From Actinacidiphila alni (GTDB lineage: Bacteria > Actinomycetota > Actinomycetes > Streptomycetales > Streptomycetaceae): a stretch of 64,000 bases of DNA. Positions 40,058-59,986 of this stretch are shown piece by piece (position 1 is the stretch's first letter; each line of letters begins with the position of its first letter). The position numbers and the translations under genes are program-made. A model generated the notes under the pieces. The model saw only the letters and a list, made by a program, of their open reading frames with translations. It was not told the origin of the DNA and did no database searches. The stretch covers positions 124,001-188,000 of the forward strand of contig NZ_FONG01000010.1 of the NCBI RefSeq assembly GCF_900112845.1, in the 5' to 3' direction.

Positions 40058-43000
40058 TCAGCCCCGCAGTCCGTGCCCGGCCGGCGGCAGGGTCAGCGGT
40101 CCGACCGGCAGGTTGGGACGCCCGGTGGTGCCGTATGCCGCGCCTGCCGGGAGGCGTACCGTCACCGCGCCGTTGCCGCGGGGTGTGACGGTGACCGTCC
40201 AGGTCGTGCCCGCGGCGCCGATGCCGGCGCCGGTGAACCCTGTGACGGTGCCGTTCGACACCTTGAGGTCGGCGGCGGTCAGGCCGGTGACCTGCTGGTC
40301 GAGGGTGAGCGTGAACGGGACCGGAGTGCCGCGGCGGGCGGCGGTCGCCGTGCTGACCAGGGTGCCGGTGGGGGCGTCCCCCACTCGGTACGCGCCGCCG
40401 CAGACACCGGTCAGCAGCGGGTCGGTGATCACGTCCCGGCTGCCCGAGGTGCTGAGCACATGGCAGCCGACGCCGACGCGTACGGCGAGCCTGCCGCCGT
40501 CCTGCCGTGTGGCGGCCTGCGGGCGGCCGTCCACGTACACCGTCGTGCCCCGGTATCCGTCGGTGACGGGCAGGCTGACGGTGGCCGAGGAGTTGCCGGG
40601 CACGGACACCCCGAGGTCGGTGCGGTCACCGACCCGGTGGAAGGAGGCGCCCACGGTGCCCTTGACGGTGGGCGTGGTCACCGAGCCGTACGTCTGGTCG
40701 CCGGGCTGCGGCCTGACCGTGAAGGTGTCGTAGCCAGGGCTGTCCGGCGCGATGCCGTACATGTCGCGCGGGATGACGTAGGCGGGAGCGGCAGCCCAGG
40801 CGTGCGACCAGGTCATGTTGCTCTTCTCGCTCGGATCCCACGCCTCGCCGGTGGCGCCCGCGCCCAGCTCGATCATGTGCATCCAGCTGTTGGTGGCGTG
40901 CGAGGTGAGCAGGTCGAGCGCGTCCTGGCCGTGGTCGGCGTTGTACAGGCCCTGGAGCAGGAAACCGGCGCAGTACACGCTGCACGCCATGCCGCGTTCC
41001 GTGAGGTACGAGGCGACGGCGTCGTACTGCTGCCTGCTCGCGGGCACCCCGAAGGCGGCGGGGAAGGCGCTGGCCTGGACGGCGAAGTGGCCGGTCGGCC
41101 TCATCGCGGCGTCGAGTCCGTCGTCGTAGGCGCCCTTGTCCGCGTTGTAGAAGGACGCGTTGAGGGTGCCGCGGAGCTTGTCGGCGATGCCGCTGAAGGT
41201 CGTGGCGTCGGCGCTCTTGCCGAGCGCGGTGGCCATCACCGCCATCTGGGAGAAGTTGCTGTACGACAGCGCGCCCAGGATGGTGTTCTTCGCGGCGAAG
41301 ACATAGCCGTCGCGGCTGCCCTGGGGCCAGTCCACGATGGCGTCGGACTGGTCGATGGTGCCGAGTGCCGCGTTGTAGTCCTTGCTGAGCAGCTTCGGCA
41401 CGAGCGCGTCGTACATCCGCTTCACTTGGTCGGTGGCGCCGGTCTGCCGCCAGTTGTCGTAGACCGAGGTGATCACGTACAGCGGCCATTCCTGCGGCCA
41501 GGTGCGGTGGTTGGCGAAGTAGTCCATCGAGTACACCCCGAGCGTGGGGTCGTCGCTGAGGTAGAGGCTCGCCAACTGGTGGATGTAGCTGTCGGCTTCG
41601 TACGGGGCGCGCTCGCGGGTCCAGGAGTCGACGTAGAAGTTCTGGTTGGTGGTCTCGATCGTGTTCTTGGCGAGCTGCCAGACCGCGACCAGGTCCTGGT
41701 CGGAGGAGGTGAGCTGGGCGCCGCTCTCGTCGAACGGGTAGACCAGCGCGAGGGCCTGGAGATTGTCGGCGGTGATCGGGACGGGCGAGTCGAGGACGTC
41801 GAGATAGCGGAAGACCCGCATGCCCCAGGTGTCGACGGTCTGGGTGCCGGCGCGCAGCGTGACGACGTCCTGGTACTCGTTGCCCGCGCGCAGCCTGTAG
41901 CGGACGGTCGTCGGGTCGGACAGCTCCTCGCCGTAGCGGAGGGTGACCTTGTGGCCCGCCGTGCCGGGCAGCGTGAGGTGGACGCCGCCCTGCCAGGTCT
42001 GGCCGAAGTCGACCAGATAGTCGCCGTTGCCCTTGTCGGTGATCTTGACGGGCTTTCTGAGCTGCTCCTGGATCTTGGCGACAGGCGTCGGTTCGAGGTC
42101 GGCGAAGGCGGGCTTGGCGACCGCGGCGGTCCACGCGGAGTCGTCGTACCCGTGGCGGCCGAAGCCGTCCGGGTAGCGGCTCATCGTGATGTCCTCCTGC
42201 GGCAGATTCCAGACGCTGGTCCCGCTGGACCTGGTGGAGGGCCAGATCGACGAACCCGCCATGGACGTCCAGTCCGGCCCGGTGCCGACGGTCTGTGTGC
42301 TGCCGTCGGTGTAGCGGATCACCAGATATGCCTGGAAGCGCTGGTCCTTGGCGGTGTACGCGACGGCCGACAGCGCGTGGCCGCCGCCGGTGCGCAGCGC
42401 GGCGGTGACGTCGAAGCCGTCGTAGGGGGTCTCCTTGTCCAGCGACTCGGTGGGGCCGAGGCCGATGAATTTCCCGTCGAGATACAGCTTGTAGACGTAC
42501 TGCTTGGAGCCGTCGAAGGACGAGGCGGTGGCGAACACCGAGGCCCAGGCGACCTGTTTGGGCGCGCTGTGTCCCTTGTGGTCCTTGGTGGTGTCGAGCG
42601 TGAAGTCGTGCCGCAGCAGGGCCCAGTCGTTGCTGGTGTTGGTGCTGAGGCAGTCGGTGCTGGTGCCGACGGACAGGGCCCCGTTCTGGACGGTGCCGCA
42701 GGGGAAGCTCGCGTCGGCGGCGCCGAAGTCGTTGGCGTAGAGCGTCTTTCCGTTGTCGGCCGCGGCCAGGCCGGTGACGGTCACGTCGTCAGCGGTGCCG
42801 GTCTCGGTGCTGCCGGTGCGGAAGCCGATGCCGCCCTCGGCGAAGGTGGTGTCGGTCCTGCTGTCGACGACCACGCCGTCGAGGTACGTGGTGAGCTTCG
42901 GCCCGACCGCCTCGATCCGTACGTCGTGCGTACTGCCCACGGCCAGCGTGGTGTTGAGCGGTACGGGCGTGCCGGCCTGGAAAGTGCCGGCCGTCTCGAT

Positions 43001-43642
43001 GTGCGGGACGAGGGTGTTGGCGTTGCTGGTGCCCGCGGCCCTGAACTGCCACATGTAGCCGTTGCGGGCGTCGGGCGAGCGGAAGCGCACGCCGAGCGCG
43101 GTCCTGGTGACGGTCAGCTTCACGTCGAGCCGGTAGTCGGTCCAGGCGGTGGCGGCGGGCGGCGCGGACCAGATGGGCGTGCTCGTGCCCCAGGTCGTGC
43201 CGGGCGCCGTGCCGAAGACCGCGGGCGCCGACCAGGCGGTCGGCCGGCCGCGCTCGTCCCAGATCCGCACCGTCCAGGAGTAGCGCTCGGCGGGCCGCAG
43301 GGTGCTGCCGCGGTACGGGATCGCCGTGGCCGCGGCGGAGCCGACCCTCGCGCTGTCCCAGACGGTGTGGCCGCGGCCCTGTTCGCCCTCGGTGACCCGG
43401 ATCTCGTAGCCGGTCTGGCGGGCGACGCCGGACTGCCAGCCGAAGCCGACGGTGCCCGCCGGGTCGACGTCCACCGGTGCGGCGAGCGAGCCGGTGGTGA
43501 GGTGGGTCGGGGCGGCCGCGGGGCGTCCCGCGCCGATGCCGGTGGTGGCGCTCGCGGGCCCGGCCAGTGGCTGCACCAGGACGAGGGCGGCCAGGGCGGA
43601 TCCCGTGGCCAGGAGGGAGACAAGTCTTCGGCGTATCGGCAC
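40058..43642 (-). CDS. Secreted GH78 alpha-L-rhamnosidase, multidomain
   Basis: 1194 residues. I place the start at GTG 43642 (VPIRRRLVSLLATGSALAALVL), a clean signal peptide. The longer ATG starts (43690/43693) fall inside the operator and right at the predicted transcription start. Order: FnIII-like sandwich, a concanavalin-like insert (RLDVKLTVTRTALGVRF to GIGFRTGSTETG), carbohydrate-binding and beta domains, then the (alpha/alpha)6 barrel with FYVDSWTRERAPYEADS, the GH78 catalytic Asp/Arg/Glu block, and NSWMHMIELGAGATGEAWD near the second catalytic Glu. It would cut terminal rhamnose from plant glycosides or polysaccharide. Divergent from the GH3 gene. Confidence 0.85.
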   Translation of the reverse strand: MPIRRRLVSLLATGSALAALVLVQPLAGPASATTGIGAGRPAAAPTHLTTGSLAAPVDVDPAGTVGFGWQSGVARQTGYEIRVTEGEQGRGHTVWDSARVGSAAATAIPYRGSTLRPAERYSWTVRIWDERGRPTAWSAPAVFGTAPGTTWGTSTPIWSAPPAATAWTDYRLDVKLTVTRTALGVRFRSPDARNGYMWQFRAAGTSNANTLVPHIETAGTFQAGTPVPLNTTLAVGSTHDVRIEAVGPKLTTYLDGVVVDSRTDTTFAEGGIGFRTGSTETGTADDVTVTGLAAADNGKTLYANDFGAADASFPCGTVQNGALSVGTSTDCLSTNTSNDWALLRHDFTLDTTKDHKGHSAPKQVAWASVFATASSFDGSKQYVYKLYLDGKFIGLGPTESLDKETPYDGFDVTAALRTGGGHALSAVAYTAKDQRFQAYLVIRYTDGSTQTVGTGPDWTSMAGSSIWPSTRSSGTSVWNLPQEDITMSRYPDGFGRHGYDDSAWTAAVAKPAFADLEPTPVAKIQEQLRKPVKITDKGNGDYLVDFGQTWQGGVHLTLPGTAGHKVTLRYGEELSDPTTVRYRLRAGNEYQDVVTLRAGTQTVDTWGMRVFRYLDVLDSPVPITADNLQALALVYPFDESGAQLTSSDQDLVAVWQLAKNTIETTNQNFYVDSWTRERAPYEADSYIHQLASLYLSDDPTLGVYSMDYFANHRTWPQEWPLYVITSVYDNWRQTGATDQVKRMYDALVPKLLSKDYNAALGTIDQSDAIVDWPQGSRDGYVFAAKNTILGALSYSNFSQMAVMATALGKSADATTFSGIADKLRGTLNASFYNADKGAYDDGLDAAMRPTGHFAVQASAFPAAFGVPASRQQYDAVASYLTERGMACSVYCAGFLLQGLYNADHGQDALDLLTSHATNSWMHMIELGAGATGEAWDPSEKSNMTWSHAWAAAPAYVIPRDMYGIAPDSPGYDTFTVRPQPGDQTYGSVTTPTVKGTVGASFHRVGDRTDLGVSVPGNSSATVSLPVTDGYRGTTVYVDGRPQAATRQDGGRLAVRVGVGCHVLSTSGSRDVITDPLLTGVCGGAYRVGDAPTGTLVSTATAARRGTPVPFTLTLDQQVTGLTAADLKVSNGTVTGFTGAGIGAAGTTWTVTVTPRGNGAVTVRLPAGAAYGTTGRPNLPVGPLTLPPAGHGLRG

Positions 43643-43677
43643 GACGCATCCCGGGGAGATCAGGTGAAGCACAGCAT

Positions 43678-43689
43678 TGAAACGTTTCA
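43678..43689. promoter_or_regulatory. LacI-type operator (TGAAACGTTTCA, perfect palindrome)
   Basis: A 12-base perfect inverted repeat with the central CG typical of LacI/GalR operators, about 10 bases downstream of the predicted minus-strand transcription start. One mismatch from the site at 10588. Confidence 0.7.
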
Positions 43690-43704
43690 TCACGCTCCGT
43701 AGTG

Positions 43705-43964: not shown

Positions 43965-46900
43965 GTGCCGGAACCCATGGAGGACCGTCGGCCGTACCGC
44001 GGATCGCCGGGCGGACGAGGACGGCCGCGGGCCCGGCGGCGGATGGCAGGAGCGGCCGGCGCCCTCGCGGTGGCGACGCTGCTCACCGTGGTCACCGGCC
44101 AGGTCCCGGCCGCGGCGGGACCCGCTGTCGGCGGAGCGTCCGACTGCCCCTGGGTCGGCTCGCACGCCTCCCCGGGGCAGCGCGCCGCGCAGGTGCTGGC
44201 CCGGATGACGACCGACGAGAAGCTGTCGATGACGCACGGCAGCCAACTGCCCGGCTACGCGGGCGTCGTGGCCCCGATCCCGCGGCTGTGCGTCCCGGCG
44301 CTCAATCTCAACGACGGCGGCGCGGGTGTGGTGATGGGCGGGACCACCGCCATGCCCGCGCCGGTGGCCGCCGCGGCGAGCTGGGACCCGGCGGCGGAGC
44401 GTTCGTACGGGCAGGTCGTGGGCGCCGAGGCGAAGACCAAGGGGGTGAGCGTCGACCTCGGGCCCGACACCAATCTGGTGCGGGACCCGCGCGGTGGCCG
44501 GGTGTTCGAGATGGCGGGCGAGGACCCGTATCTCGCGGGCGCGATGGCCACGCAGTACGTCAAGGGTGTGCAGTCGCAAGGGGTGATGGCCGACCTGAAG
44601 CACCTGGTGGCCAACGACACCGAGCAGAACCGCAACAACGGCAACGCGATCGTCGACGAGCGCACCCTCAACGAGATCTACTACCCGGCGTTCAAGCAGG
44701 CCGTGCAGGAAGGCGGCGCGGCGTCCATCATGGCCGCGACCAGCCTGGTCAACGGGGTGCACGCCAACGAGAACGCGTATCTGCTGAACGCGACGGCCAA
44801 GCAGGACTGGGGATTCGACGGCTTCGTCGTCACCGACTGGGACGGCGCGCGCAGCACCGTCCGGGCCGCCAACGCCGGTCTCGACCTCAACATGCCCGCG
44901 CCAGGAAACTTCGGGCAGCCGCTGTCGGACGCCGTGCGCTCGGGCGAGGTGAGCATGGCGGTGCTCAACGACAAGGTCGCCCGGCTGCTCACCGAGGAGT
45001 TCGCCTACGGCCTCTTCGACTCCGCACCCGGCTCCCCCGGCGCCACCGCGACCACCCCGGAACACGTCGCCACCGCACGGGACATCGCGGCCGAGGGCAC
45101 CGTCCTGATGAAGAACGACGGCGGACTGCTCCCGCTGGACACCGCCGGGACACCGTCGATCGCGGTGATCGGCGCGGCGGCGAAGGAGGCCCCGGTCACC
45201 GGGGGCGGCGGCAGCTCGCACGTCCCGGTCGGCGGTTCCTCCGTGGTCACCGTCGCCGACGGGATCGCGCAGCGCGCCGGGGACTCCGTCCGTGTGGACA
45301 CCGTCGGCAGCTGGACGGGCGCCGCGTCCTCCTCGGCCAGTGGCTCCGACCAGCCGGGCAACATGTTCGACGGCAACACCGCCACCCGCTGGTCCAGCGG
45401 CGCGCCGATGGCCGACGGCCAGTGGGTCACCGCCGACATGGGCGGCTCGCACCCGGTCGACCGGATCACCCTGGACGCGGGCAACGGCACGGACTACGCC
45501 CGCGGTTACCGGATCTATCTGTCCGCCGACGGCTCCGACTGGGGCGACCCGGTGGCGGAGGGCACCGGCACCGGGCAGGTGATCACCGCGACCTTCACCG
45601 CACGGCAGGCCCGTTACCTCAAGATCGTGCAGACCGGTTCCGCGAGCAGCTGGTGGTCGATCGCGGAGCTGACGGCGTACACCGCGGACGGCAGCGGCGG
45701 CCAGAGCGCGGTGCCGCGTACCGGCGTACGGGTGCCGGGCGTCACCGACAAGCTGCCCACCGTCCCCTCGGCGCGCTTCAGCACCGCCGACGGGAAGCAG
45801 GGCCTCACCGCGAGCTACTACAACAATCTCGATCTGTCCGGCACGCCCGCGCTCACCCGGGTGGAGCCCGCGATCGACGACCACTACACGTCCGCGCCGG
45901 GCCCCGGCGTCAATCCGGCCGGTTTCTCGGTGCGCTGGAGCGGCTATCTGACGGCGCCGGTCACCGGCACCTACACCTTCTCGATGGCCAACACCGGCGG
46001 GGTCAGGATGACGCTCGGCGGTGAGCCGGTCTTCCAGGACTGGGCGCAGTACGGTCCCGGCGTCTCCGCGATCCACCTCAAGGGCGGGGTGCGGACGCCG
46101 ATCACGGTGGAGAACTACCAGCCCGTCAACGGTCCGAGCGGCCCGGTGGCGGGCACGCCCACCAGCCCGCCCTCCAACGGCAGCATCACACTGGGCTGGC
46201 AGGTCCCGGACACCGACGCCATCGCCGCCGCGGCGGCCGTCGCCAAGCAGGACAGCGTCGCCGTCGTGGTCGTCAACGACGACGAGAGCGAGGACGGCGA
46301 CCGGCAGAATCTCACCCTGCCCGGCGCGCAGGACGACCTGATCGCGGCCGTCGCCGCCGCCAATCCGCACACGGTCGTCGTCCTCAACACCGGCGCCCCG
46401 GTGCTCATGCCGTGGCTCGGTTCGGTCGACGGGGTGCTGGAGTCCTGGTACGGCGGTCAGCAGAACGGGGCCGCGCTGGCGTCCGTGCTGTTCGGCGACG
46501 TCAATCCGTCGGGCAAGCTGCCGCAGACCTGGCCCGCGAGCATGGACCAGCTGCCGACCGCCGACACCTCCCGCTACCCCGGGGATGTCGATGTGTCGAC
46601 CAACACCACGAACTACCACTACAGCGAGGGCCTCGACGTCGGCTACCGCTGGTACGACGCCCACAAGCTCAAGCCGCTGTTCCCCTTCGGCTACGGCCTC
46701 AGCTACTCGACCTTCTCCTTCAGCGGGCTGTCGGTGACGCCGGGGCGTACGGACACCACCGGTCCCGTGCGGGTGTCGGCGACCGTGAAGAACACCGGCA
46801 GGCGGACGGCCACCGAGGTCGCCCAGCTCTATGTCGGCGAGCCGGCGAGCACCGGCGAACCGCCCAAGCAGCTCAAGGGATTCCAGCGGGTCACCCTCGC

Positions 46901-48272
46901 GCCCGGAAAGTCGCAGCGCGTGACCTTCACCGTCGACCCGGCGGACCTGCGCACCTGGGACGACGCCACGCACGCCTGGCGCAGCAATGACGGAACCTAC
47001 CGGATGTACGTCGGCGACTCCTCCCGGGACCTGCCGCTGACCGGCAGTTATACGCTGCGCCGCTCGTCCGGCGCACGGACGGTCACGGCCCACGCACCCA
47101 CCACGCTCGATCCCGCGCATGGAAATGTCGTCACCACGACACTCACCGCCGGCGGCAGCCGGACCCTCAGCCGGGTCGGGCTCGGCCTCGATCTGCCGGA
47201 CGGCTGGACGGCGCGGGCGCTGAGCCGTACGGTCTTCGCCACGGTCAGGCCCGGCCAGCGGCTGACGGCGTCCTGGCGGGTCACGCCGCCCGCCGGGGCA
47301 CAGGACCGGCTGTGGCGGCTGACGGCGACGGCCACCGCGAACGGCGGCTGGCGCCTGTCCGGCGGCCTCGGCGTCACCGTGGGCCCGCTGGTGTCGGCGA
47401 CCCTCACCTCGACGGCGAAGCTGGCCCGTACCGGCAGCAGCTACCCGGCCACGCTGACGCTGCGCAACACCACCGACCGGCAGGTCACGGTGGACGCGGC
47501 GACGCGGGCGCCGGACGCGGTGACCGTCACCCCCGCGACGGTCTCGGTGGTGATCCCGCCCCGGTCGACGGTCACCAGAGCGCTCACGGTCGCCGTGGGG
47601 GACGGTGCGAAGTCCTCGTCGATCGGCCTGACCGGCACGGTGACCGCGGCCGGCACCGGCTATCCGCTCCAGGGCGGCGGGCTCGATCTGCCGCTGCTGT
47701 TCGGTTCGGTGGCCGCGGCCTTCGACAACACCGGGGTGAGCGACGACTCCGCGCCGGGCAAGGGCGACTTCGACGGGTCCGGCTACAGCTACTCCGCCCA
47801 GTCGCTCGCGACCGTCGGCCTCGTCCCCGGGCAGCCGGTGCCGCACGGGCCCGCCGCTCTCACCTGGCCGGACGCGGCGCCCGGCGATCCGGACAATGTG
47901 GTGTCCGCGGGCCAGCACATCGCGGTGCGCGGCACCGGCTCGCAGCTGCTGGTGCTCGGCGCGGCCAACAACGGCAGCGGTTCGGGCACCGGGACGCTCA
48001 CGTACACCGACGGCAGCAGCGAGCCCTTCACGCTGTCGCTGACCAACTGGACGCCGAGCACACCGCTGCCCGGCAACGACGTCGTGGCGACGGCACCGAC
48101 CTGGAACCGGCCGGCCGGCAGCGGCTATCCGCCGGACACCGCGGTCAGCGTCTACGCGACGCAGGTGCCGCTCGCGGCGGGCAGGACGCTCGCGTACGTG
48201 ACGCTGCCGAGCACGGTCAGCGGCGATCAGGCCGGCACCCGGCTGCACGTGTTCGATCTGGCCGTCGGCTGA
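43965..48272 (+). CDS. Secreted multidomain GH3 beta-glucosidase-type glycosidase
   Basis: 1435 residues; GTG start behind GAGAGGA. A long Arg-rich n-region precedes the signal core (AGALAVATLLTVVTG). GH3 N-terminal barrel with nucleophile D291 in FVVTDWDGARST. The GH3 C-terminal domain is interrupted: after MKNDGGLLPLD and GGGGSSHVPVGGSSV come an F5/8-type sugar-binding domain (about 445-575, GNMFDGNTATRWSSG) and a PA14 domain (about 605-730, GLTASYYNNLDLSG). It resumes with AVVVVNDDESEDGDRQNL, then an FnIII-like domain, NEW3-like sandwiches and a C-terminal module shared with the next gene. It would release glucose or related sugars from plant glycosides. Confidence 0.88.
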   Translation: MPEPMEDRRPYRGSPGGRGRPRARRRMAGAAGALAVATLLTVVTGQVPAAAGPAVGGASDCPWVGSHASPGQRAAQVLARMTTDEKLSMTHGSQLPGYAGVVAPIPRLCVPALNLNDGGAGVVMGGTTAMPAPVAAAASWDPAAERSYGQVVGAEAKTKGVSVDLGPDTNLVRDPRGGRVFEMAGEDPYLAGAMATQYVKGVQSQGVMADLKHLVANDTEQNRNNGNAIVDERTLNEIYYPAFKQAVQEGGAASIMAATSLVNGVHANENAYLLNATAKQDWGFDGFVVTDWDGARSTVRAANAGLDLNMPAPGNFGQPLSDAVRSGEVSMAVLNDKVARLLTEEFAYGLFDSAPGSPGATATTPEHVATARDIAAEGTVLMKNDGGLLPLDTAGTPSIAVIGAAAKEAPVTGGGGSSHVPVGGSSVVTVADGIAQRAGDSVRVDTVGSWTGAASSSASGSDQPGNMFDGNTATRWSSGAPMADGQWVTADMGGSHPVDRITLDAGNGTDYARGYRIYLSADGSDWGDPVAEGTGTGQVITATFTARQARYLKIVQTGSASSWWSIAELTAYTADGSGGQSAVPRTGVRVPGVTDKLPTVPSARFSTADGKQGLTASYYNNLDLSGTPALTRVEPAIDDHYTSAPGPGVNPAGFSVRWSGYLTAPVTGTYTFSMANTGGVRMTLGGEPVFQDWAQYGPGVSAIHLKGGVRTPITVENYQPVNGPSGPVAGTPTSPPSNGSITLGWQVPDTDAIAAAAAVAKQDSVAVVVVNDDESEDGDRQNLTLPGAQDDLIAAVAAANPHTVVVLNTGAPVLMPWLGSVDGVLESWYGGQQNGAALASVLFGDVNPSGKLPQTWPASMDQLPTADTSRYPGDVDVSTNTTNYHYSEGLDVGYRWYDAHKLKPLFPFGYGLSYSTFSFSGLSVTPGRTDTTGPVRVSATVKNTGRRTATEVAQLYVGEPASTGEPPKQLKGFQRVTLAPGKSQRVTFTVDPADLRTWDDATHAWRSNDGTYRMYVGDSSRDLPLTGSYTLRRSSGARTVTAHAPTTLDPAHGNVVTTTLTAGGSRTLSRVGLGLDLPDGWTARALSRTVFATVRPGQRLTASWRVTPPAGAQDRLWRLTATATANGGWRLSGGLGVTVGPLVSATLTSTAKLARTGSSYPATLTLRNTTDRQVTVDAATRAPDAVTVTPATVSVVIPPRSTVTRALTVAVGDGAKSSSIGLTGTVTAAGTGYPLQGGGLDLPLLFGSVAAAFDNTGVSDDSAPGKGDFDGSGYSYSAQSLATVGLVPGQPVPHGPAALTWPDAAPGDPDNVVSAGQHIAVRGTGSQLLVLGAANNGSGSGTGTLTYTDGSSEPFTLSLTNWTPSTPLPGNDVVATAPTWNRPAGSGYPPDTAVSVYATQVPLAAGRTLAYVTLPSTVSGDQAGTRLHVFDLAVG

Positions 48273-48283
48273 CGCACGGGCAA

Positions 48284-48313
48284 GGGGGCCGCCTCCGGCG
48301 GGCGGCGGCCCCC
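48284..48313 (+). terminator. Hairpin between GH3 and GDSL genes
   Basis: A perfect 10-bp stem (GGGGGCCGCC / GGCGGCCCCC) with a 10-base loop, 12 bases after the GH3 stop. It may stop or merely attenuate read-through into the esterase gene 36 bases further on. Confidence 0.55.
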
Positions 48314-48349
48314 GCGCTCTCCCCACCGATCACCCGTCAGGAGTGCGAC

Positions 48350-50137
48350 ATGAAACGGATCGTGTTGGCGACCGCATTGCTCGTCACCGCGCTGGCGCCA
48401 CCGGCGACGGCCGCGGCGAGCGGCGGCCCGGTGCGGCACACCGAATACGGCAGCCTCGCCGCCGCCTACGACAACGCCGGCATCAGTGCCGCGGGCGCGC
48501 CCGGCTCGGCCGACCTGGACGGCCTGGGCAACAGTTTCGTGGCCGAGGACCTGAGCGCCGCGGGCTGGGGCCCGGGCGCCCCGGTCACCCTGGTCGGCAC
48601 CCGGCTCACCGTCCCGCACACGGCGCCGGGCGCGCCGGACAATGTCGTGGCCGACGGCCAGCGCATCAGGCTGCGCGGCTCCGGCTCCGCCCTGACCTTC
48701 CTGGTGACCGGTACGGCCGCGGCGGCCGGCGGCACCGGCACGCTCGACTACGCCGACGGCAGCGCGCAGAGCTACACGCTGACCGCGCCCGACTGGTACA
48801 GCGGGCCGAGCGACGCCATGGCCGTCCGTGTCCCGCGCCGCAACACCCCGGCGGGGCCGACCGCGCTGGACGTGAAGCTCTACGCGGTGTCGGTGCCGGT
48901 CGACACCCGCAAGCGGCTGGCCGCCGTCACCCTGCCCACCGTCGCGTCCACGGGTGGCTCCCCCGCCCCGGAGCTGCATGTGTTCTCGCTCGGCCTGCGG
49001 CCGAAGTCGTCCGGCTGGACGGCCAGTTGGTCCACGGCCATCGACGACGGCCTCGCGCCGTACCAGTGGACCGACCGCACACTGCGGATGGTCGAGCACA
49101 CCAGCGTCGGCGGCAACCGCGTACGGGTCAGGCTCGACAACGCCTACGGTCCGGGTCCCCTGACGGTGGGTCACACCACCATCGCGGTACGGGCGTCGGG
49201 GCCGGATCCGGTGGCGAAGCCGGTGACGCTCACCTTCGGCGGCAAGCAGCAGGTGACGATGCCGGCCGGCGGCCAGGCGTACAGCGACCCGCTGCCGTTC
49301 ACGGTGCCCGCGGACCGGGACCTGCTGGTGAGCCTGTACCTGCCGGGCACGGTGCAGTTCGCGCCGATGCACAGCCAGGGCCTTCAGGACATGTACTCCA
49401 CCAACGACGGCGGCGTGGACGACGCGGCCGACGGCTCGGACTTCCCGGTGAACAATCTCTTCGGCTTCTGGACGGTGCTGTCCGGTGTCGATGTCACCGG
49501 CCCCTCGCACAGCACCGTGGTGGCGCTCGGCGACTCGATCACCGACGGCTACGCCTCGACCGTCAACGGCAATCAGCGCTGGCCCAACTACCTGGCGCAG
49601 CGCCTGAACGCACGGTACGGGCCGAAGGCGCCGGCCGTCGCCAACGAGGGCATCAGCGGCAACAGGGTGCTCACCGACGCCTTCAACGGCCTGCCGAACA
49701 CCGGCACGGCCGGGGTGAGGGCGACGGCCCGGCTCGACCGCGACGTGCTGAGCCAGAGCGGTGTGCGCACCGTCGTCGTCCTCGAAGGCATCAATGACGT
49801 CAACTCCGACAGTTCGGCGGCCGATGTGATCGCCGGTCTGAAGCAGATCGCCGCGACCGCGCACTCCTACCGGCTGCGGGTGGTCGTCGGGACGCTCACC
49901 CCGACCGCGGGCTGCGGCTGCACCAACCCGGCGCGGGCGGCGGCCAGGGATACGATCAACGCCTTCATCAGGGACAACGGCGGTGCCTTCGACGCGGTCG
50001 CCGACTTCGACGCCGCCGTCCGCGACCCGGCGAACCCGCAGGCGATGCTCGCGCAGTACGACTCCGGTGACCATCTGCACCCCAATGGCGCCGGCTACCG
50101 GGCGATGGCCGACGCGTTCGACCTCGCCTCCCTCTGA
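48350..50137 (+). CDS. Secreted GDSL/SGNH-family esterase
   Basis: 595 residues with a Sec signal (KRIVLATALLVTALAPPATAAA). Residues about 30-215 are a beta module homologous to the C-terminus of the upstream GH3 (AAAYDNAGISAAGAPGSADLDG). After a linker sandwich (LGLRPKSSGWTASWSTAIDDG) comes the SGNH hydrolase: block I VALGDSITDGY (catalytic Ser), block II NEGISGNRVL, block III EGINDVNS, and block V DHLHPNGAGY (Asp-x-x-His). It would remove acetyl or similar esters from plant polysaccharide, helping the glycosidases beside it. Likely co-transcribed with the GH3 gene. Confidence 0.88.
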   Translation: MKRIVLATALLVTALAPPATAAASGGPVRHTEYGSLAAAYDNAGISAAGAPGSADLDGLGNSFVAEDLSAAGWGPGAPVTLVGTRLTVPHTAPGAPDNVVADGQRIRLRGSGSALTFLVTGTAAAAGGTGTLDYADGSAQSYTLTAPDWYSGPSDAMAVRVPRRNTPAGPTALDVKLYAVSVPVDTRKRLAAVTLPTVASTGGSPAPELHVFSLGLRPKSSGWTASWSTAIDDGLAPYQWTDRTLRMVEHTSVGGNRVRVRLDNAYGPGPLTVGHTTIAVRASGPDPVAKPVTLTFGGKQQVTMPAGGQAYSDPLPFTVPADRDLLVSLYLPGTVQFAPMHSQGLQDMYSTNDGGVDDAADGSDFPVNNLFGFWTVLSGVDVTGPSHSTVVALGDSITDGYASTVNGNQRWPNYLAQRLNARYGPKAPAVANEGISGNRVLTDAFNGLPNTGTAGVRATARLDRDVLSQSGVRTVVVLEGINDVNSDSSAADVIAGLKQIAATAHSYRLRVVVGTLTPTAGCGCTNPARAAARDTINAFIRDNGGAFDAVADFDAAVRDPANPQAMLAQYDSGDHLHPNGAGYRAMADAFDLASL

Positions 50138-50212: not shown

Positions 50213-53200
50213 CTACGCGGTCCGCACGCTGAATTCGTAGTGTCCTGAGCCGACGCGGTAGACCCCGCCGCCGAGCGCCCGGACACCGGACGCCTTCTCG
50301 GCGGGTCGGCCGCCTTCCAGCACCGCCCTCCCGTCCGCGCCGGGCACATGGACGTCGGCCGTGGCGTTCCCCGGCACGTCGACGGTGAGGGTGAGCAGGC
50401 CCTTGGGGTGCTTGCGCCAGCTGACCGCGACCCGGCCGCGGACGGTGTCGACCCATGCGGCGGCGTGGTCGAGCGGTCCCGCCACCGACGGCTGGACGGT
50501 GATCCGTTCGTAGCCCGGTGCGCCGGGAGTGATGCCGCCGACCTGCTCGTAGAACCACTGGTCGATGGAGCCGAAGAGATAGTGGTCGTGCGACGGCGGC
50601 CGGCCCTGGCCGTCCTGTTGCAGCTCCCAGGTCTCCCAGAGCGTGTCGGCGCCGTTGGCCAGCCAGAAGCCCCAGCTGGGAAAGGTGCGCTGGCCCGCGG
50701 CGGCGTGCGCCACGTCGGCGTGGCCGGTCGCGGTCAGCACGGGCAGCAGGACGGCGGTGCCGACGGCGCCGGTGTTGAGGTGGTCGCCGTGCGCGTGCAC
50801 ATCGGCGGCGAGGCTGTCGGCGACGCGGGAGCGCAGATCGTCCGGGACCAGACCGAAGGCCAGCGCGATGGCGTTGGAGCACTGCCGGTAGCCGGGGTCC
50901 TTGCTGGTCCGGTACAGGGCGCGGTCGCGGTCAAGGAAGGTAGTGTTGAACAGGTCGCGCAGCCCGTCGGCCTGCTTCTGGAGCCGGGCCGCGTCGGCGC
51001 TCCTGCCGAGGATTCCGGCGGCGTCGGCGAGGATGCTCAGGCCCCGGTGCAGATAGGCGGTCGCCGTCAGCCGGGTGTCCTCCGGCGGCTGGGTGTAGCC
51101 GCCGGGCGAGAGCCAGTCGCCGAGGCCGCTTGTCGCCAGTCCTTCGGCGTCGCGGTTGCCGTACTCCCAGTCGACGTAGCGCAGCACACCGGCGTAGTGG
51201 TCGGACAGTGCGCGCAGATCGCCGAAGCGGCGGTACAGCTCCCACATCACGATGGGGTAGGCGGCCTTCCACTCGGGGGCCTGCCAGTCGTCGCCCCAGC
51301 CGCCGGTCGGCGCGATCACCGGGATGGTGCCCGAGTCGAGCTGGCTGTCGGCCAGGTCGTCGAGCCATTTGGCGAGGAAGCGCCGGGTGTCGTAGTTGAA
51401 CGTCATCGACGGCACATTGAGCTGCGCGTCGGCGGTCCAGCCGATCTTCTCGTACATGACGTCGACCGCGGGGATGCCGAGCAGGTGGTGGCCGAGACTG
51501 CGGCCGACCATGGCGTGGATCCGCGCGTAGAGGTCGCTGGAGGAGCTGAAGCCGCCGGTGGTGGCCAGGTCGCTGCGCACTTCCTGGCCGCGCAGGGTGT
51601 CCTTGCGCGGGGCGCCGGGCAGTCCGGTGACCTGGACGTAGCGGAAGCTCTTGTGACTGAAGCGCGCGTGCCAGGTCTCGACGCCGTCGCCGGAGAGCAC
51701 GTATTCGTCCTGCTGGAATCTGCCGCCCGAGACGTATCCCTGCGACAGGTCGACGGTGCCGTCGGCGGTGAGCTGCTGGGCGTACTTCAGCGTGACGCGG
51801 GTGCCGCGCGGGCCCGAGACGCGCAGCGCCGCCCAGCCGCCGAGGGTGCGGCCGAGGTCGAAGACCCTGACGCCCGGCTGGGGTTCGGTGACGGCGACCG
51901 GCGAGAAGGTCTCCTTGATACGGATCGGCTGGAGGGGCTGTGCGACCAGCCGTCCCGCGGGCGCGCTCATCGCGGTCGCCGCGCTCCAGGCGGTGTCCTC
52001 GAAGCCGGGCTTCGACCAGCCGGGCTGTGCCTGGCGGGCGTCGTAGGTCTCGCCGGCGTAGATCGAGTCGGAGCGGGTCGGTCCGTCCGTGGTCCGCCAG
52101 CCGTCGTCGGTGGCAACGATGTCATGCGTGCCGTCGGCGTAGCCGATCTCCAGTTGCAGGCGCAGCCGGGGGTCGCCGTTCCAGGGGGCGTTGGTCCAGT
52201 CCCATGCCGTGACGGTGCGCAGGCCGAAGAAGCCGCGGCCGAGTTCGGCGCCGATGGCGTTGCGCCCGCGCCGCAGGTGCTGTGTGACGTCGTGGGTGAC
52301 GTACAGGACACGCTTGTCGTAGTCGGTCGGTGCGGGGTCGAGCACGCTGTCGCCGACCTTCCGGCCGTTGATCTCCAGCTCGTGGTAGCCGACACCGGCC
52401 GCGTACAGGCGGGCCTGGCGGACCGGTTTGGTGACGGTGAAGTCGCGGCGGAGCAGCGGGGCCGGGGCGGGCGGGAGACTGACGCCGTGGCCCCACGGGC
52501 CCGAGCCGTAGGCGGCGGTCTCGCGGGCCGCGGGCCAGCCACTGTCGTCGAAGCCGGGCTGCTGCCAGCCGGCCGGCTGGTCCTGCGCGGCTCGCCAGGC
52601 CGCGCCGGTCGGGACGATCAGCGGGTCGCCGGAGTCGAATTCGACGATCAGCCGGCCGAGCAGGCCCGCGGGTGACGGATTGCCGTTGGTGTCCAGGGCG
52701 TTGGTGGCGGCGACGGCGAGGGTGTTGCCGCCGGTGGTCAGCGCGGAGGTCACGTCGATGACCTGGCCGTCGTACCAGAGCGCGCCCTCCGGGGTGCCGC
52801 CCGCCTCCTGGCCGTTGGCGTACAGCACGAAGCTGTCGTCCGCGGTCATCACGACCCGGGCACGGGTGACGTGCCGGTCGGCGGGCACGTCGAAGTGCAG
52901 CCGGAAGGAGCGCACCATCGGGGGCAGGCTCTGGGTGGGGTCGCCTTCCGGGTACCAGATCCAGTGGGCGCCCTCGAAGGTCAGCAGGGGTGAGGTCGCG
53001 TTGCCGATCCACCGGCCCGTCCAGTCGTCCGGCGAGAGCAGGCCGGTCTCCCACAGGCTCGGCGCGCTCCACTGCGAGGCGCGGCCGTCCTGGTCCCAGA
53101 CCCGGACCTTCCACACGTAGCGGGTCCTGGAGCGCAGCGGCGGCCCGGCGTAGACGACGCCGACGGAGTCCGCGGACGTGACCTGTCCGCTGTCCCACAC

Positions 53201-53512
53201 ATCGGCGCGGTCACGGGCGAGCGACTCCGTCGAACTGGCGACCAGGACGCGGTACGACCGCTGCCGCAGGCCCCGGCGCCCGCCGGCGTCGAGCTGCCAG
53301 CCGAGGCGGGGTGCGGTCACGTCGATGCCCAGCGGGCCGTCCGCGGACTCGACGGTGAGCGTGGTGGGACGCGGCGGGCCCGAGGCGGCGGTGCTCGCGG
53401 CCTGCGCCGGTACGAGCGGCAGGCCGGTGACGGCCACGCCGGTGCCGACGGCGATGGCGACGAACTCCCTGCGGGAGAAGGGTGACCGGGGCTGTTCAGG
53501 GGTGGTGCCCAT
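50213..53512 (-). CDS. Secreted (Tat) GH78 alpha-L-rhamnosidase
   Basis: 1099 residues. The signal is twin-arginine (PFSRREFVAIAVG), so it is exported folded. An FnIII-like N-terminus (PRLGWQLDAGGRRGLRQRSY), Bac_rhamnosid_N sandwiches (YAAGVGYHELEINGRKVGD) and the concanavalin-like domain precede the barrel, with VDVMYEKIGWTADAQL as the catalytic block (E and D retained) and WLANGADTLWETWE near the second catalytic Glu. The C-terminal rhamnosidase sandwich ends the protein. Length and order are textbook for GH78. It lies 130 bases downstream of the dehydratase gene at 53643 and probably belongs to the same operon as the transporter. Confidence 0.9.
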   Translation of the reverse strand: MGTTPEQPRSPFSRREFVAIAVGTGVAVTGLPLVPAQAASTAASGPPRPTTLTVESADGPLGIDVTAPRLGWQLDAGGRRGLRQRSYRVLVASSTESLARDRADVWDSGQVTSADSVGVVYAGPPLRSRTRYVWKVRVWDQDGRASQWSAPSLWETGLLSPDDWTGRWIGNATSPLLTFEGAHWIWYPEGDPTQSLPPMVRSFRLHFDVPADRHVTRARVVMTADDSFVLYANGQEAGGTPEGALWYDGQVIDVTSALTTGGNTLAVAATNALDTNGNPSPAGLLGRLIVEFDSGDPLIVPTGAAWRAAQDQPAGWQQPGFDDSGWPAARETAAYGSGPWGHGVSLPPAPAPLLRRDFTVTKPVRQARLYAAGVGYHELEINGRKVGDSVLDPAPTDYDKRVLYVTHDVTQHLRRGRNAIGAELGRGFFGLRTVTAWDWTNAPWNGDPRLRLQLEIGYADGTHDIVATDDGWRTTDGPTRSDSIYAGETYDARQAQPGWSKPGFEDTAWSAATAMSAPAGRLVAQPLQPIRIKETFSPVAVTEPQPGVRVFDLGRTLGGWAALRVSGPRGTRVTLKYAQQLTADGTVDLSQGYVSGGRFQQDEYVLSGDGVETWHARFSHKSFRYVQVTGLPGAPRKDTLRGQEVRSDLATTGGFSSSSDLYARIHAMVGRSLGHHLLGIPAVDVMYEKIGWTADAQLNVPSMTFNYDTRRFLAKWLDDLADSQLDSGTIPVIAPTGGWGDDWQAPEWKAAYPIVMWELYRRFGDLRALSDHYAGVLRYVDWEYGNRDAEGLATSGLGDWLSPGGYTQPPEDTRLTATAYLHRGLSILADAAGILGRSADAARLQKQADGLRDLFNTTFLDRDRALYRTSKDPGYRQCSNAIALAFGLVPDDLRSRVADSLAADVHAHGDHLNTGAVGTAVLLPVLTATGHADVAHAAAGQRTFPSWGFWLANGADTLWETWELQQDGQGRPPSHDHYLFGSIDQWFYEQVGGITPGAPGYERITVQPSVAGPLDHAAAWVDTVRGRVAVSWRKHPKGLLTLTVDVPGNATADVHVPGADGRAVLEGGRPAEKASGVRALGGGVYRVGSGHYEFSVRTA

Positions 53513-53642
53513 GGCTGCTCCTACGATCGGGTGTTGCAGCGAAGGTGGGGTCGGTGCGGGTGCCGGGCAGGGTCGCCCGGCGCGGGTCGCCGTCGCGGGT
53601 GCCGGGCGGCCGGCGCGGGTGGTGAACGCCGGCCGGCGGCGG

Positions 53643-54764
53643 TCAGCGGCGGTAGCGGTCGAGGACGTCCTCGCGGATCTCGACGCCGAGTCCCGGGCCG
53701 CGCGGCGCGGTGAAGTGCCCGTCGCGCGGGAGGAGGGGACGGGGCGTCAGCTCGTGCTGCATGGGGTTGACCAGGGGTTTGATCTCGACCTGGCGGCAGC
53801 CCGGCGCCGCGAAGGACAGGGCGAGGCTGGCGGCGGTGACGACGGCGCTCGACCAGGCGTGCGCGTTGATCTCCCGGCCCGCCGCGTGGGTGTGGGCGGC
53901 TGCCGCGCGCCAGCCGGTGATGCCCTCGCAGCGTCCGGGGTCGACGCCGACGACGTCGACGGTGCCGGTCGCGACGATCCGCTGGACACCGCGCGGGGTC
54001 CACTCGCGTTCCCCGTAGGCGATCTTCGTGGTGACGGCGGCCCGCAGTTCGGCGTAGCCCTCGGGGTCGTCGGCGCCGAGCGGCTCCTCGATCCAGTCGA
54101 TGCCGTGCTCCTCGAAGGCGCGGGTGCGCCGGATCGCGGTCCGTACGTCCCAGCGGACGGACGCGCCGAGGTCGATCATGATCGAGGGTTCCGGGCCGAG
54201 TTCGCGGCGCAGGGCGGCGACGAAGGCGACGTCCCGGTCGTGGTCGACGCCGAGCCGGGCGGTGCCGCGCTTGCCGAAGCCGACCTTGATGCCCGTCGCC
54301 CGGTGCTCGCGCACCCAGCCGGCCATCGTCGCGGCCATCGCGTCCAGATCCTCGACGGTCGCGTGGCAGCTGACCAGGGCGGGCAGCGCCTGGTGGACGG
54401 GGCCGCCGAGCAGATCGAGCAGGCTGAGCCCCGCGGCCTTGCCCGCCAGGTCCCACAGCGCGATGTCCAGTGCGGAGATCGCGAAGGAGGCGATGCCGCC
54501 GTTGCCGTACCACCAGGTGTGGTCCTTCAGGGCGGTGTGGATCGCGGCGTGCTCCATCGGGTCGCGGCCGACGACGAGTGGGGCGAGCCCTTCGACGAGG
54601 GCGGCGCACGCGGTGGTGGCCTCCGGCCACATCGTGACGGCCTCGCCCCAGCCGACCGTGCCGTCGTCGGCGGTGATCCGGACGAAGAGCAGGTGGCGGA
54701 CGCCGTCGCTGTCGTTGGGCTCCGGGTAGGCGACCGGGATCGCCTCGATGCTCGCGGCCCTCAT
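53643..54764 (-). CDS. Enolase-superfamily dehydratase (mandelate racemase/muconate lactonizing type)
   Basis: 373 residues. GIKVGFGKRG supplies the catalytic Lys region, and the three metal ligands are in MIDLGAS, WIEEPLG and YGEREW. NAHAWSSAV near the end carries the possible base His. The substrate lid (AIPVAYPEPNDSDGVRHLL) differs from the other two dehydratases in this window, so substrates differ. A sugar-acid dehydratase is most likely. Start overlaps the Gfo/Idh stop by 4 bases, and a GH78 gene follows, tying it to rhamnoside breakdown. Confidence 0.82.
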   Translation of the reverse strand: MRAASIEAIPVAYPEPNDSDGVRHLLFVRITADDGTVGWGEAVTMWPEATTACAALVEGLAPLVVGRDPMEHAAIHTALKDHTWWYGNGGIASFAISALDIALWDLAGKAAGLSLLDLLGGPVHQALPALVSCHATVEDLDAMAATMAGWVREHRATGIKVGFGKRGTARLGVDHDRDVAFVAALRRELGPEPSIMIDLGASVRWDVRTAIRRTRAFEEHGIDWIEEPLGADDPEGYAELRAAVTTKIAYGEREWTPRGVQRIVATGTVDVVGVDPGRCEGITGWRAAAAHTHAAGREINAHAWSSAVVTAASLALSFAAPGCRQVEIKPLVNPMQHELTPRPLLPRDGHFTAPRGPGLGVEIREDVLDRYRR

Positions 54765-55819
54765 GAGACGGTCTCGAACAGGCCGCTGGCGGCGCTGCGG
54801 TAGGCGAGTTCCAGTGCTTCCACGGTACGGGCCCCCAACTCCCCCGGTGCCGGATTGTCGGTGGTCCTGCCGAGGGCGAGGTCGATCAGCCTGCGGACGG
54901 CGCGGCCGCCGTCGTACGCGCCCTCGCCCGGTGTGACGGGCAGGTCCTGCTGGCCGCTCCCGGTACGGAAGAGCGACACGCGTTCACGGAAGACGTCGAC
55001 GGTGAACTGTCCGCCGGAGCCGACCGCCTCGACCGCCAGATGGTGTTTGTTGCCGTCCACGCCGAGGTGCGCGGAGGCGCCGCCGACGCTGCAGATGCCG
55101 CCGTCGGTCAGGGCGAGGCAGATCGCGTCGTGCAGTTCCACACGGGCGCCCAGCGGCGCCGCCATCAGCGCGAAGGCGCCGCGGGCGCGCACCCCGGTGA
55201 GGCCGAGGGCCAGGGCGAGGGCGTGCGAGAGCTGTGCCTGTCCGTAGCCGCCGCCGGATTTCAGCGGGTCGGTCCAGGTCGCCTGTTCCGGTGCGGTGTC
55301 GGGGCTGGCGTCGGGGTACGCGCCGGTGTCGGCCAGCAGTTCGCGGGTCTGCGAGGACATGGTGATGGCCAGGTGCTCCACCGTGCCGATGCCTTCGGCG
55401 GCCAGCGCGTCCCGGGTCCGGGTGATCATCGGGGCGAAATTCCAGCCGAAGGACACCAGCAGATGGCGGCCGGTGCGCTCGGCGGTGTCCACCAGCGACC
55501 ACGCCTGGGCGGCGGTCATGGTGAACGGCTTCTCGCACAGCACGTGCGCGCCCGCCTCCAGCGCCGCCATGGCGTGCGTGTAGTGGTCGGCGGTCGGGCT
55601 GGCGATCACCACGATGTCGGCGCCGGCCGCCAGCACGTCCCGGTAGTCCTCGCTGGCGACCCGGAAGCCGTAGCGTTCCTTGATCCGGCCGAGCGCGTCC
55701 CCGCCGTGCCGGCACACACCGACGAATTCGACGTCGTCGCGGGCCGCCTCCAGGATCGGCAGATGGGCCGCCAGTGCCCAGGAGCCGGCGCCGATCAGGC
55801 CCAGGCGCAGTTGTGTCAC
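54761..55819 (-). CDS. Gfo/Idh/MocA-family sugar oxidoreductase
   Basis: 352 residues. The NAD(P) loop is LGLIGAGSWALAAHL, with VIASPTADHYTHAMAALEAGAHVLCEKPFT containing the catalytic EKP motif. The C-terminal beta domain shows GGGYGQAQLSHALALALGLTG (GGG.....H). These enzymes oxidise sugars, inositols or their acids at a ring carbon. It overlaps the dehydratase start (ATGA) and lies 40 bases downstream of the permease, so it is co-transcribed with the importer and probably acts on the imported sugar. Confidence 0.85.
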   Translation of the reverse strand: MTQLRLGLIGAGSWALAAHLPILEAARDDVEFVGVCRHGGDALGRIKERYGFRVASEDYRDVLAAGADIVVIASPTADHYTHAMAALEAGAHVLCEKPFTMTAAQAWSLVDTAERTGRHLLVSFGWNFAPMITRTRDALAAEGIGTVEHLAITMSSQTRELLADTGAYPDASPDTAPEQATWTDPLKSGGGYGQAQLSHALALALGLTGVRARGAFALMAAPLGARVELHDAICLALTDGGICSVGGASAHLGVDGNKHHLAVEAVGSGGQFTVDVFRERVSLFRTGSGQQDLPVTPGEGAYDGGRAVRRLIDLALGRTTDNPAPGELGARTVEALELAYRSAASGLFETVS

Positions 55820-55859
55820 CTTGTTGTTCCCTTCACCCTTCGCTGCTGTCGCGAGTTGA

Positions 55860-57020
55860 TCACAGTTTGGAGAACCTGAGCCGCAACTGGTCGAAGCTGA
55901 CGGCGATGATCAGGAGCGCGCCGCTGGCGACCTGCTGGTAGAAGCTGGAGACATTGAGCAGGGTCAGCCCGTTGTTGAGCACGCCGATGATCAGCAGGCC
56001 GACGATGGTGCCCTGGATGGTGCCGCGGCCGCCCGCCAGGCTCGCGCCGCCGAGCACGATCGCGGTCACGACGCTGAGTTCGAGGCCGGTCGCCGCGTTG
56101 GGCGAGGCGGCCGAGAGCTGCGAGTCCAGGATCAGTCCGGACAGCGCGACCCCGACGCCGCTGAGCACGAAGGCCACCACGATCATCTTGCCGCCGCGGA
56201 CACCGACCAGCCGGGCCGCGACCGGGTTGGAACCCGCCGCGTACAGCGAGCGGCCGAAGACGGTGTAGCGCATCACCAGGGCGGCGAGCACCGCGATGCC
56301 GAGCAGCAGCAGTCCTGGTACGGGGATGTTGAGGAACGGGCGGGCGGTGCCGAGGCCGGAGAAGTTGGCCAGGGTGACGGTCGCGCCGTGCGCCCGTACT
56401 TCGGTCAGGCCGCGCAGGACGGCGAGCATGCCGAGGGTGGCGATCAGCGCGTTCACTCTGAGGACGGTCACCAGCAGGCCGTTGACCAGGCCGATGAGGA
56501 TGCCGAGGCCGACGGCGACCAGCACGCCGAGGATCAGTGCGTGGTTCTGCGAGACGGTGGCCATCATGACGCCGCAGAAGGCGGCGCCGCTGCCGACCGA
56601 CAGGTCCACCTGTCCGGCGATGAGCAGCATGGTGCCGGGGATGGCGATGATGCCGGTCACCGCGATCGCGGTGAGCACATTGACGATGTTGTCCTTGGTC
56701 ATGAAGTACGGCGACTTCAGCCAGAAGAACGCGATCAGGGCGACGAGCACGACCAGCAGGGCGGCCAGTTCCGGTGCGGAACGGGCCCGCCTGCGGGCGG
56801 TGGGCGGCGCGTCGCCGCCCTTGGAGGCGGGTGTGCCGCCGGCGGCCGGGTCGGTGGACGTCCTGCCCGCCGGCGTCTTGTCGACGGACACCTTTTCGGG
56901 GGGCGTCGCGTCGGCGGGCGCCGTGTCCGGGGGCGCGGTGTCGGTCGGCGTGGTGTCGGGCACGGTGCCCTCGGTCGGAGTCGTGTCGGTGGTCTGCTTC
57001 TTGCCGGTGACGTTGGCCAT
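55860..57020 (-). CDS. Sugar ABC transporter permease (RbsC-like)
   Basis: 386 residues, about ten transmembrane helices, with GQVDLSVGSGAAFCG and NGLLVTVLRVNALIATLGML as family motifs and GGASLAGGRGTIQGTIVGLLIIGVLNNGLTLL near the end. A Thr/Pro-rich hydrophilic N-terminus of about 70 residues is unusual and probably cytoplasmic. I favour the ATG at 57020, which has GAGGG four bases before it; an upstream ATG at 57053 overlaps the ATPase stop (ATGA) and would add 11 residues. Partner genes are the ATPase and binding protein just upstream. Confidence 0.87.
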   Translation of the reverse strand: MANVTGKKQTTDTTPTEGTVPDTTPTDTAPPDTAPADATPPEKVSVDKTPAGRTSTDPAAGGTPASKGGDAPPTARRRARSAPELAALLVVLVALIAFFWLKSPYFMTKDNIVNVLTAIAVTGIIAIPGTMLLIAGQVDLSVGSGAAFCGVMMATVSQNHALILGVLVAVGLGILIGLVNGLLVTVLRVNALIATLGMLAVLRGLTEVRAHGATVTLANFSGLGTARPFLNIPVPGLLLLGIAVLAALVMRYTVFGRSLYAAGSNPVAARLVGVRGGKMIVVAFVLSGVGVALSGLILDSQLSAASPNAATGLELSVVTAIVLGGASLAGGRGTIQGTIVGLLIIGVLNNGLTLLNVSSFYQQVASGALLIIAVSFDQLRLRFSKL

Positions 57021-57049
57021 GGAACCCTCTTCGGAGCTGGTGGTGTCCT

Positions 57050-58651: not shown

Positions 58652-58665
58652 CGCGGTGCTCCGGT

Positions 58666-59742: not shown

Positions 59743-59797
59743 GGGAACTACCTTTCGGCTGACTCGATGCCCGCCGGACCGAGCGATGATGGACGCT

Positions 59798-59813
59798 CCG
59801 GAATGGATTCCAG
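59798..59813. promoter_or_regulatory. LacI-type operator, site 1 (reverse: CTGGAATCCATTCCGG)
   Basis: A 16-base near-palindrome with core GGAATGGATTCC. It begins just downstream of the -10 box of the transporter promoter, overlapping the predicted transcription start. 14 of 16 bases match the consensus CTGGAATCGATTCCAG. Confidence 0.7.
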
Positions 59814-59816
59814 CTC

Positions 59817-59846
59817 TTCCTAACCCCGTTCCGCACCGACCGTCAA
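59817..59846 (-). promoter_or_regulatory. Promoter of the sugar-transporter operon (TTGACG-N18-TAGGAA)
   Basis: Minus strand: -35 TTGACG at 59846-59841 and -10 TAGGAA at 59822-59817, 18-base spacer. The operator at 59798-59813 follows immediately. Confidence 0.5.
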
Positions 59847-59956
59847 GGCTCTGATCCAAACGGGTCGCGAGTCTTTTACTAGGTCAGAGCCTGATGGGGC
59901 GGATGGGGAGATCAAGTGGACACAAGTGGTTGACCGCCGCCCGGCGAAGTGCAAGC

Positions 59957-59972
59957 CTGGCATCGATTCCAG
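59957..59972. promoter_or_regulatory. LacI-type operator, site 2 (CTGGCATCGATTCCAG)
   Basis: 15 of 16 bases match the consensus palindrome. It ends 14 bases before the ATG at 59987 and lies within or just after the weak promoter (TTGACC at 59930-59935, no clear -10). Confidence 0.7.
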
Positions 59973-59986
59973 CCTGAGGAGACCCT

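Follow-up and report, generated by a model that had tools for sequence, protein, structure and literature searches.

In a 64,000-nucleotide stretch of the Actinacidiphila alni genome (contig NZ_FONG01000010.1, positions 124,001 to 188,000; hereafter the window), two neighbouring genes encode a glycosidase of glycoside hydrolase family 3 (GH3) and a GDSL/SGNH esterase, both predicted to be secreted, that share a module of about 185 residues. We found that this module is homologous along its whole length to AziU2 (Azi28), a component of AziU3/U2, the aziridine synthase in the azinomycin pathway. AziU2 itself was already known; the new point is the identity of the module as its relative. Judged against Pfam and NCBIfam, the module most likely represents an undescribed family. 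It is probably a carbohydrate-binding-type ancillary beta-sandwich of secreted carbohydrate-active enzymes, a reading in which we infer both the binding of sugar and the direction of evolution.

The initial annotation of the window had described a module shared by the two proteins and had explained it by local duplication or swapping; the shared module was borne out, the local origin was not. In a BLASTP alignment of the two modules (residues in Table 1), 81 of 190 columns were identical (43%, E=9e-31). The alignment scored 359, compared to 44.7 ± 8.1 (maximum 83) for 2000 shuffles of the esterase module, which places it about 39 standard deviations above the random mean. The motifs listed in the annotation (DN.G.S, APG..D.DG, PDNVV..GQ, RG.GS.L, GTGTL.Y.DGS and LHVF.L) were found in both modules. 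Across alignments the two modules were 43-44% identical, and at the DNA level 68.6% over 334 nt. The search for further modules that had been proposed was carried out and revealed nine places in the A. alni genome as well as copies in many other genomes.

The structure of the GH3 module, on which the fold comparison is based, was predicted with AlphaFold 2 from an alignment of 85 sequences (85 of 99 eligible modules). The model is a beta-sandwich with a predicted local distance difference test score (pLDDT) of 96.9 and a predicted template modelling score of 0.93. In a Foldseek search against the PDB, the top four rows were AziU2-type chains of 7wuw and 8gs1 (E 9.7e-11 to 1.3e-9, template modelling score about 0.8, best AziU2 row 0.80), and the fifth row dropped to E=4.5e-3. 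VIA-align returned AziU2 with Z 21.7 and 20.8 (for the Z 21.7 row 174 residues, root-mean-square deviation 2.2, 21% identity). The next row after AziU2 was a carbohydrate-binding module (CBM) at Z 7.0, below which CBM36, CBM6, CBM35, CBM4 and CBM16 were listed; kinship to CBMs by fold is not claimed, as the best Z of 7.0 is too weak. The relationship to AziU2 was likewise detected in the sequences. When the GH3 module alone was compared with PDB sequences, AziU2 scored no better than E=0.13, and the match became clear once a profile was used: the enzyme-module profile hit AziU2 in hmmsearch with E=6.2e-18 (positions 7/8-183 of 184), and hhalign of the module profile against an AziU2 profile gave 99.4% and E=2.2e-21 over 171 columns. 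Used as a single query, the AziU2 fragment detected GH92 and GH29 modules of the A. alni genome at E=5e-12 and 4e-11.

When 85 modules were scanned, no curated Pfam or NCBIfam model covered the whole module. The best Pfam match was Rib (E 2.5e-4, 25 members) and the best NCBIfam match a Rib/alpha repeat (E 2.1e-5, 19 members). An identity as Rib domain was rejected, since these matches are read as a short YxDGS hairpin motif (compare profile positions 86-115). Among the papers listed from the open-licence PubMed Central literature, neither a description of such a module nor a link between AziU2 and CBMs was found; the original AziU3/U2 paper (10.1021/jacs.2c07243) lies outside this scope. A legend in the AlphaFold 3 paper labels the AziU3/U2 complex with a sulfated ligand as a novel fold (PMC11168924).

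Comparison of the enzyme-borne modules with the AziU2 branch separates two groups of residues. Both branches keep DN67-68, GQ73-74, DG106-107, D118, LP171-172, H185 and F187. Others, D27, W119 and N138 among them, are conserved in 84% or more of 57 enzyme modules and mostly changed in 13 AziU2 rows, which have motifs of their own, ERR and, from module position 138 on, HYPxHV. Motifs of the AziU2 type, HYPxHV(Q) and ERR, are absent from the two window modules, which carry N-R-P and N-T-P at that place. By sequence, the residues kept in both branches are likely to form the scaffold and those changed in the AziU2 branch are likely to mark the site.

In the A. alni genome the module occurs on three GH3 enzymes, four GH92 enzymes, one GH29 fucosidase, where it stands in front, and one esterase, and an alignment of these nine copies contained 13 invariant columns. 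With a nine-row profile the module was detected in 15 of 296 genomes of the phylum, and with an 85-row profile in 271 of 394 Streptomycetaceae genomes, the A. alni genome being counted in both; as about 8-11 candidates were scored per genome, copy numbers are lower bounds. From 201 candidate stretches, 141 were confirmed in named genomes, and the best 80 retained comprised 70 from Actinomycetota, nine from Chloroflexota and one from a Pseudomonadota metagenome-assembled genome (MAG). A Burkholderia arboris record harbors a GH92 enzyme with the module at its end (31.7% identity, E=3e-9). The module is thus found in Actinomycetota, Chloroflexota and two Pseudomonadota records of this sample.

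Host architectures were analyzed in 106 loci, chosen by similarity and with some genomes included twice, which contained 125 modules on 108 frames. BLAST labelled these frames as GH92 (50), GH3 (25), GDSL (10), GH31 (4), GH29 (2) and ThuA (1), with 16 unassigned. Pfam was run on 32 of the frames (7, 9, 8 and 8) and on both window proteins, so that the remaining assignments are BLAST labels; it confirmed GH92, GH3, GH31, GH29 and GDSL hosts and added GH2 (L077, L081) and GH76 (L089). The module was C-terminal in 24 of 25 frames labelled GH3 and 49 of 50 labelled GH92 as well as on the GH2 and GH76 enzymes, lay internally or at the end in GH31 hosts, and preceded the catalytic domain in both GH29 frames and all ten GDSL esterases. 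Two modules were found on each of five frames, four of which are Catenulispora esterases, and three modules on each of six frames, five from Chloroflexota (L110, L112, L118, L131, L135) and one from the Pseudomonadota MAG (L104). In L110 the modules follow a stretch of 600 residues that matched nothing in Pfam or the PDB, and the host region of L085 gave a weak subtilisin-like PDB match (E=1.2e-5). Matches were also present in 17 plasmid records, including an SGNH hydrolase with a C-terminal module (L218) and a GH20 enzyme with a partial match to 45% of the module length (L217). The sole convincing free-standing module, L061, lies behind a signal-like peptide. L083 was dropped as a second such case because its upstream frame looks out-of-frame by eye, and the N-terminal part of L053 is probably out of frame as well. 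In a Micromonosporaceae MAG (L099, 5197-6543), the module was seen on a short, seemingly membrane-anchored protein whose middle part resembles a lytic transglycosylase by eye; Pfam gave no match.

The initial annotation considered it probable that the module had been duplicated or swapped locally; gene conversion between the neighbours is counted here as a form of this. Such an origin is very improbable. The best matches of the GH3 module are other GH3 modules (84% identity in A. yanglinensis, the next 49-56%), and the eight best matches of the esterase module all reside on other GDSL esterases (45-56%), so that for each module the nearest relatives sit on an enzyme of the matching type from another species. 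With 43%, the GH3 module is slightly closer to its neighbour than to the GH92 and GH29 copies of the genome (33-41%), but equally close to the GH3 copy L010 (44%). Trees were built from 57 of the 125 modules after the set had been thinned at 72% identity, ten of the rows being retained by choice; a joint tree contained these rows minus three plus 13 AziU2 rows, and a tree enlarged by orthologues these rows minus four plus 12. The esterase modules formed one clade in the 57-row tree (support 99/89), in the joint tree (92/91) and in the enlarged tree (15 rows, 98/80). Host labels required 11 changes in the 57-row tree versus 33 in shuffles, with four for GH92 and two for GH3. The modules thus group, on sequence grounds, largely by host enzyme family. 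An approximately unbiased (AU) test of a local clade of GH3 and esterase modules did not reject it at the 5% level in the 57-row tree (p=0.0616), but gave p=0.0204 after closer orthologues from other genomes had been added. The genes adjoin in the window and the tandem is retained in G375 and G405, genomes of two more members of the genus, as a local origin would allow. In A. yanglinensis, on the other hand, both enzymes carry the module at separate loci, and in two further genomes (G425, G354) no GH3 catalytic match was present in the 19 kb fetched around the esterase. On balance a local origin of the pair is disfavoured, with formal AU tests that are marginal.

What the module does on these enzymes has to be weighed against two alternatives. 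It could bind no ligand and act as a passive spacer or a stabilising cap, as most of its invariant residues look structural, and as in many relatives of the esterase from this genus the alignment starts only at about residue 190-220 and the module seems to be missing. We regard this as rather improbable, since the module is used on at least seven enzyme families and is repeated in tandem, and since D27, W119, N138 and other residues that change in the AziU2 branch may mark a functional site. Since the scaffold acts as a protein partner in AziU2, the main rival is a domain for docking or oligomerisation, which binds another protein or itself and gathers secreted enzymes. It would fit the hetero-complex of AziU2 with AziU3 (7wuw, 8gs1) and the presence of the module on several different enzymes of one genome. 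Nevertheless it appears unlikely: no partner gene was seen, with no match to BtrH_N, the AziU3-type domain, at E 1e-4 among ten neighbouring window genes, and the HYPxHVQ residues of AziU2 are missing from the window modules. Moreover, it is typical of CBMs to occur in tandem and at either terminus of polymer-active enzymes.

A CBM is a discrete fold within a carbohydrate-active enzyme, and the module was predicted with high confidence in isolation (pLDDT as above) and resides on GH3, GH92, GH29, GH31, GH2 and GH76 hosts. Since position, tandem copies and host range all fit, holding on to a glycan is the simplest role. Outside the cell, the module would act in a CBM-like manner and keep the GH3 enzyme and the esterase on their glycan, which may be an acetylated hemicellulose or a similar plant polymer, as suggested by analogy with the solved relatives of the esterase. 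It is plausible that both modules bind the same polymer or complex, as had been proposed in the initial annotation. Several observations weigh against a sugar-binding module. By the tool's own scale, Z values such as those of the CBM rows (7.0 or less) are often reached by unrelated folds, and the same VIA-align list contains Cry toxins, meprin and laminin domains. The sole solved relative, AziU2, works as one partner of a protein complex in biosynthesis and not as a lectin. Most of the strictly kept residues (DN, GQ, DG, LP, H.F) look structural because AziU2 shares them, and the model of the full-length esterase reached a pLDDT of 45.7 and was not used.

AziU2-like genes were detected in 30 of 394 Streptomycetaceae genomes, with 32 matches at 39% identity or more to AziU2. 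In all 12 fetched loci (L187-L198) a homologue of the AziU3 frame of L187 was found within 3.5 kb; two such frames that were checked matched AziU3 with E=4e-201 and 2e-81, and both contain Pfam BtrH_N. Five AziU2-like frames gave no Pfam match at E 0.1. The neighbours differ between loci: a sulfotransferase, a DegT-type aminotransferase and a transketolase in L188, a sulfotransferase in L187, and a thioesterase/acyl-CoA dehydrogenase, a P450 and an acetyltransferase as the three neighbours scanned in L196. These AziU2-AziU3 pairs from different genomes possibly belong to uncharacterised aziridine-type clusters.

In the joint tree the AziU2-like rows formed one clade (100/100) on a long branch, attached near the GH29 modules and the GH92 modules of the L015 type. 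We lean slightly towards the view that AziU2 is a domesticated lectin-like module that left secreted glycosidases, is assumed to have lost both its sugar site and its signal peptide, and was rebuilt as partner of a BtrH_N-type protein, which gave rise to the AziU2-AziU3 pairs in many Streptomyces clusters. In that case AziU2 would stand for a branch of free and probably cytoplasmic proteins within the family, whose site near module residue 138 might have been rebuilt (N to HYPxHVQ) to work with AziU3. It counts against this view that midpoint rooting places the AziU2-like rows beside all 54 enzyme-borne rows and not within them; as the trees are unrooted, the direction from enzyme module to AziU2 is one that we infer.

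Coordinates of the two genes and their modules are given in Table 1. The start of the GH3 gene and the signal peptide were judged by eye. The GH3 protein contains the GH3 N domain (PF00933, E=1.4e-35) and C domain (PF01915, E=8.8e-57), F5/8 type C and PA14 inserts, an Fn3-like domain and a NEW3 (NPCBM_assoc) domain at residues 1054-1124. About 120 residues without assignment separate NEW3 from the module, and Pfam gave no match past residue 1124, the module included. In the esterase, GDSL-type matches alone reach the curated Pfam score (PF13472, E=3.1e-26), with no match at that score in residues 1-389. A PDB sequence search aligned residues 210-595, approximately, to solved SGNH hydrolases, the best being 9kr0 (E=1.4e-52), and residues 220-593 to 7tog (E=1.2e-51). 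Entries 7tog-7tok stem from a study of acetyl xylan esterases of the FjoAcXE-like type, in which a CBM-like domain is combined with an SGNH domain (PMC9105624). Because residues 210-595 match 9kr0 and 7tog, the latter being CBM-like plus SGNH, the protein is composed of the module and an FjoAcXE-like enzyme. By sequence it is an FjoAcXE-like SGNH esterase, for which acetyl xylan esterase activity is predicted.

Table 1. Features of the GH3-esterase pair (window positions).
Feature	Position	Strand	Description
GH3 gene	43965..48272	+	GTG start 43965, stop 48272; 1435 aa; from Pfam and upstream sequence
AziU2-like module of GH3	47700..48269	+	aa 1246-1435, C-terminal
G+C-rich hairpin between GH3 and esterase	48284..48313	+	from a fold of 80 nt
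GDSL/SGNH esterase gene	48350..50137	+	ATG start 48350, stop 50137; 595 aa; from Pfam and PDB sequence search
AziU2-like module of esterase	48446..48997	+	aa 33-216, directly behind signal-like N-terminus

The very stable intergenic hairpin, folded as a piece of 80 nt, has an energy of -44.9 kcal/mol (z -2.35; 6 of 200 shuffles were equally good), is not followed by a T run and is absent from the listing of the terminator scan. A similar palindrome was seen by eye after the GH3 stop in A. yanglinensis (L065). The pair is flanked by two GH78 rhamnosidases, beyond which lie an enolase-type enzyme, a GFO/IDH oxidoreductase, the permease and ATPase of an ABC system and another enzyme of the enolase type, all within 40058-43693 and 50213-61195. 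These neighbours fit a plant-polymer or glycoside locus, and the locus is probably a cluster for uptake and breakdown of rhamnose or plant glycosides.

A module present in 271 of the 394 sampled Streptomycetaceae genomes is thus without a Pfam or NCBIfam model, so that much of the sequence of many annotated glycosidases stays blank. The kinship places AziU2, a puzzling subunit in biosynthesis, in an evolutionary context and indicates which residues were altered as function changed, and AziU2 and AziU3 together provide a sequence handle for locating aziridine-type clusters.

Among known systems, AziU2 (7wuw, 7wux, 8gs1) shares sequence and fold with the whole module, but is a free protein beside AziU3 and, unlike the window modules, is not fused to an enzyme. 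CBM6, CBM35, CBM36, CBM4 and CBM16 are beta-sandwich ancillary domains like the module (Z 5.4-7.0), although they show no sequence match and their Z is too low for kinship. In several GH3, GH31 and GH2 hosts the module comes soon after NPCBM_assoc/NEW3 (PF10633), which lies further upstream in the window GH3. This domain is shorter, has a Pfam model of its own and is distinct from the module, to which no match was seen. The FjoAcXE-like acetyl xylan esterases (7tog-7tok) have their CBM-like and SGNH sequence in common with the window esterase, which carries the AziU2-like module ahead of this part as an extra.

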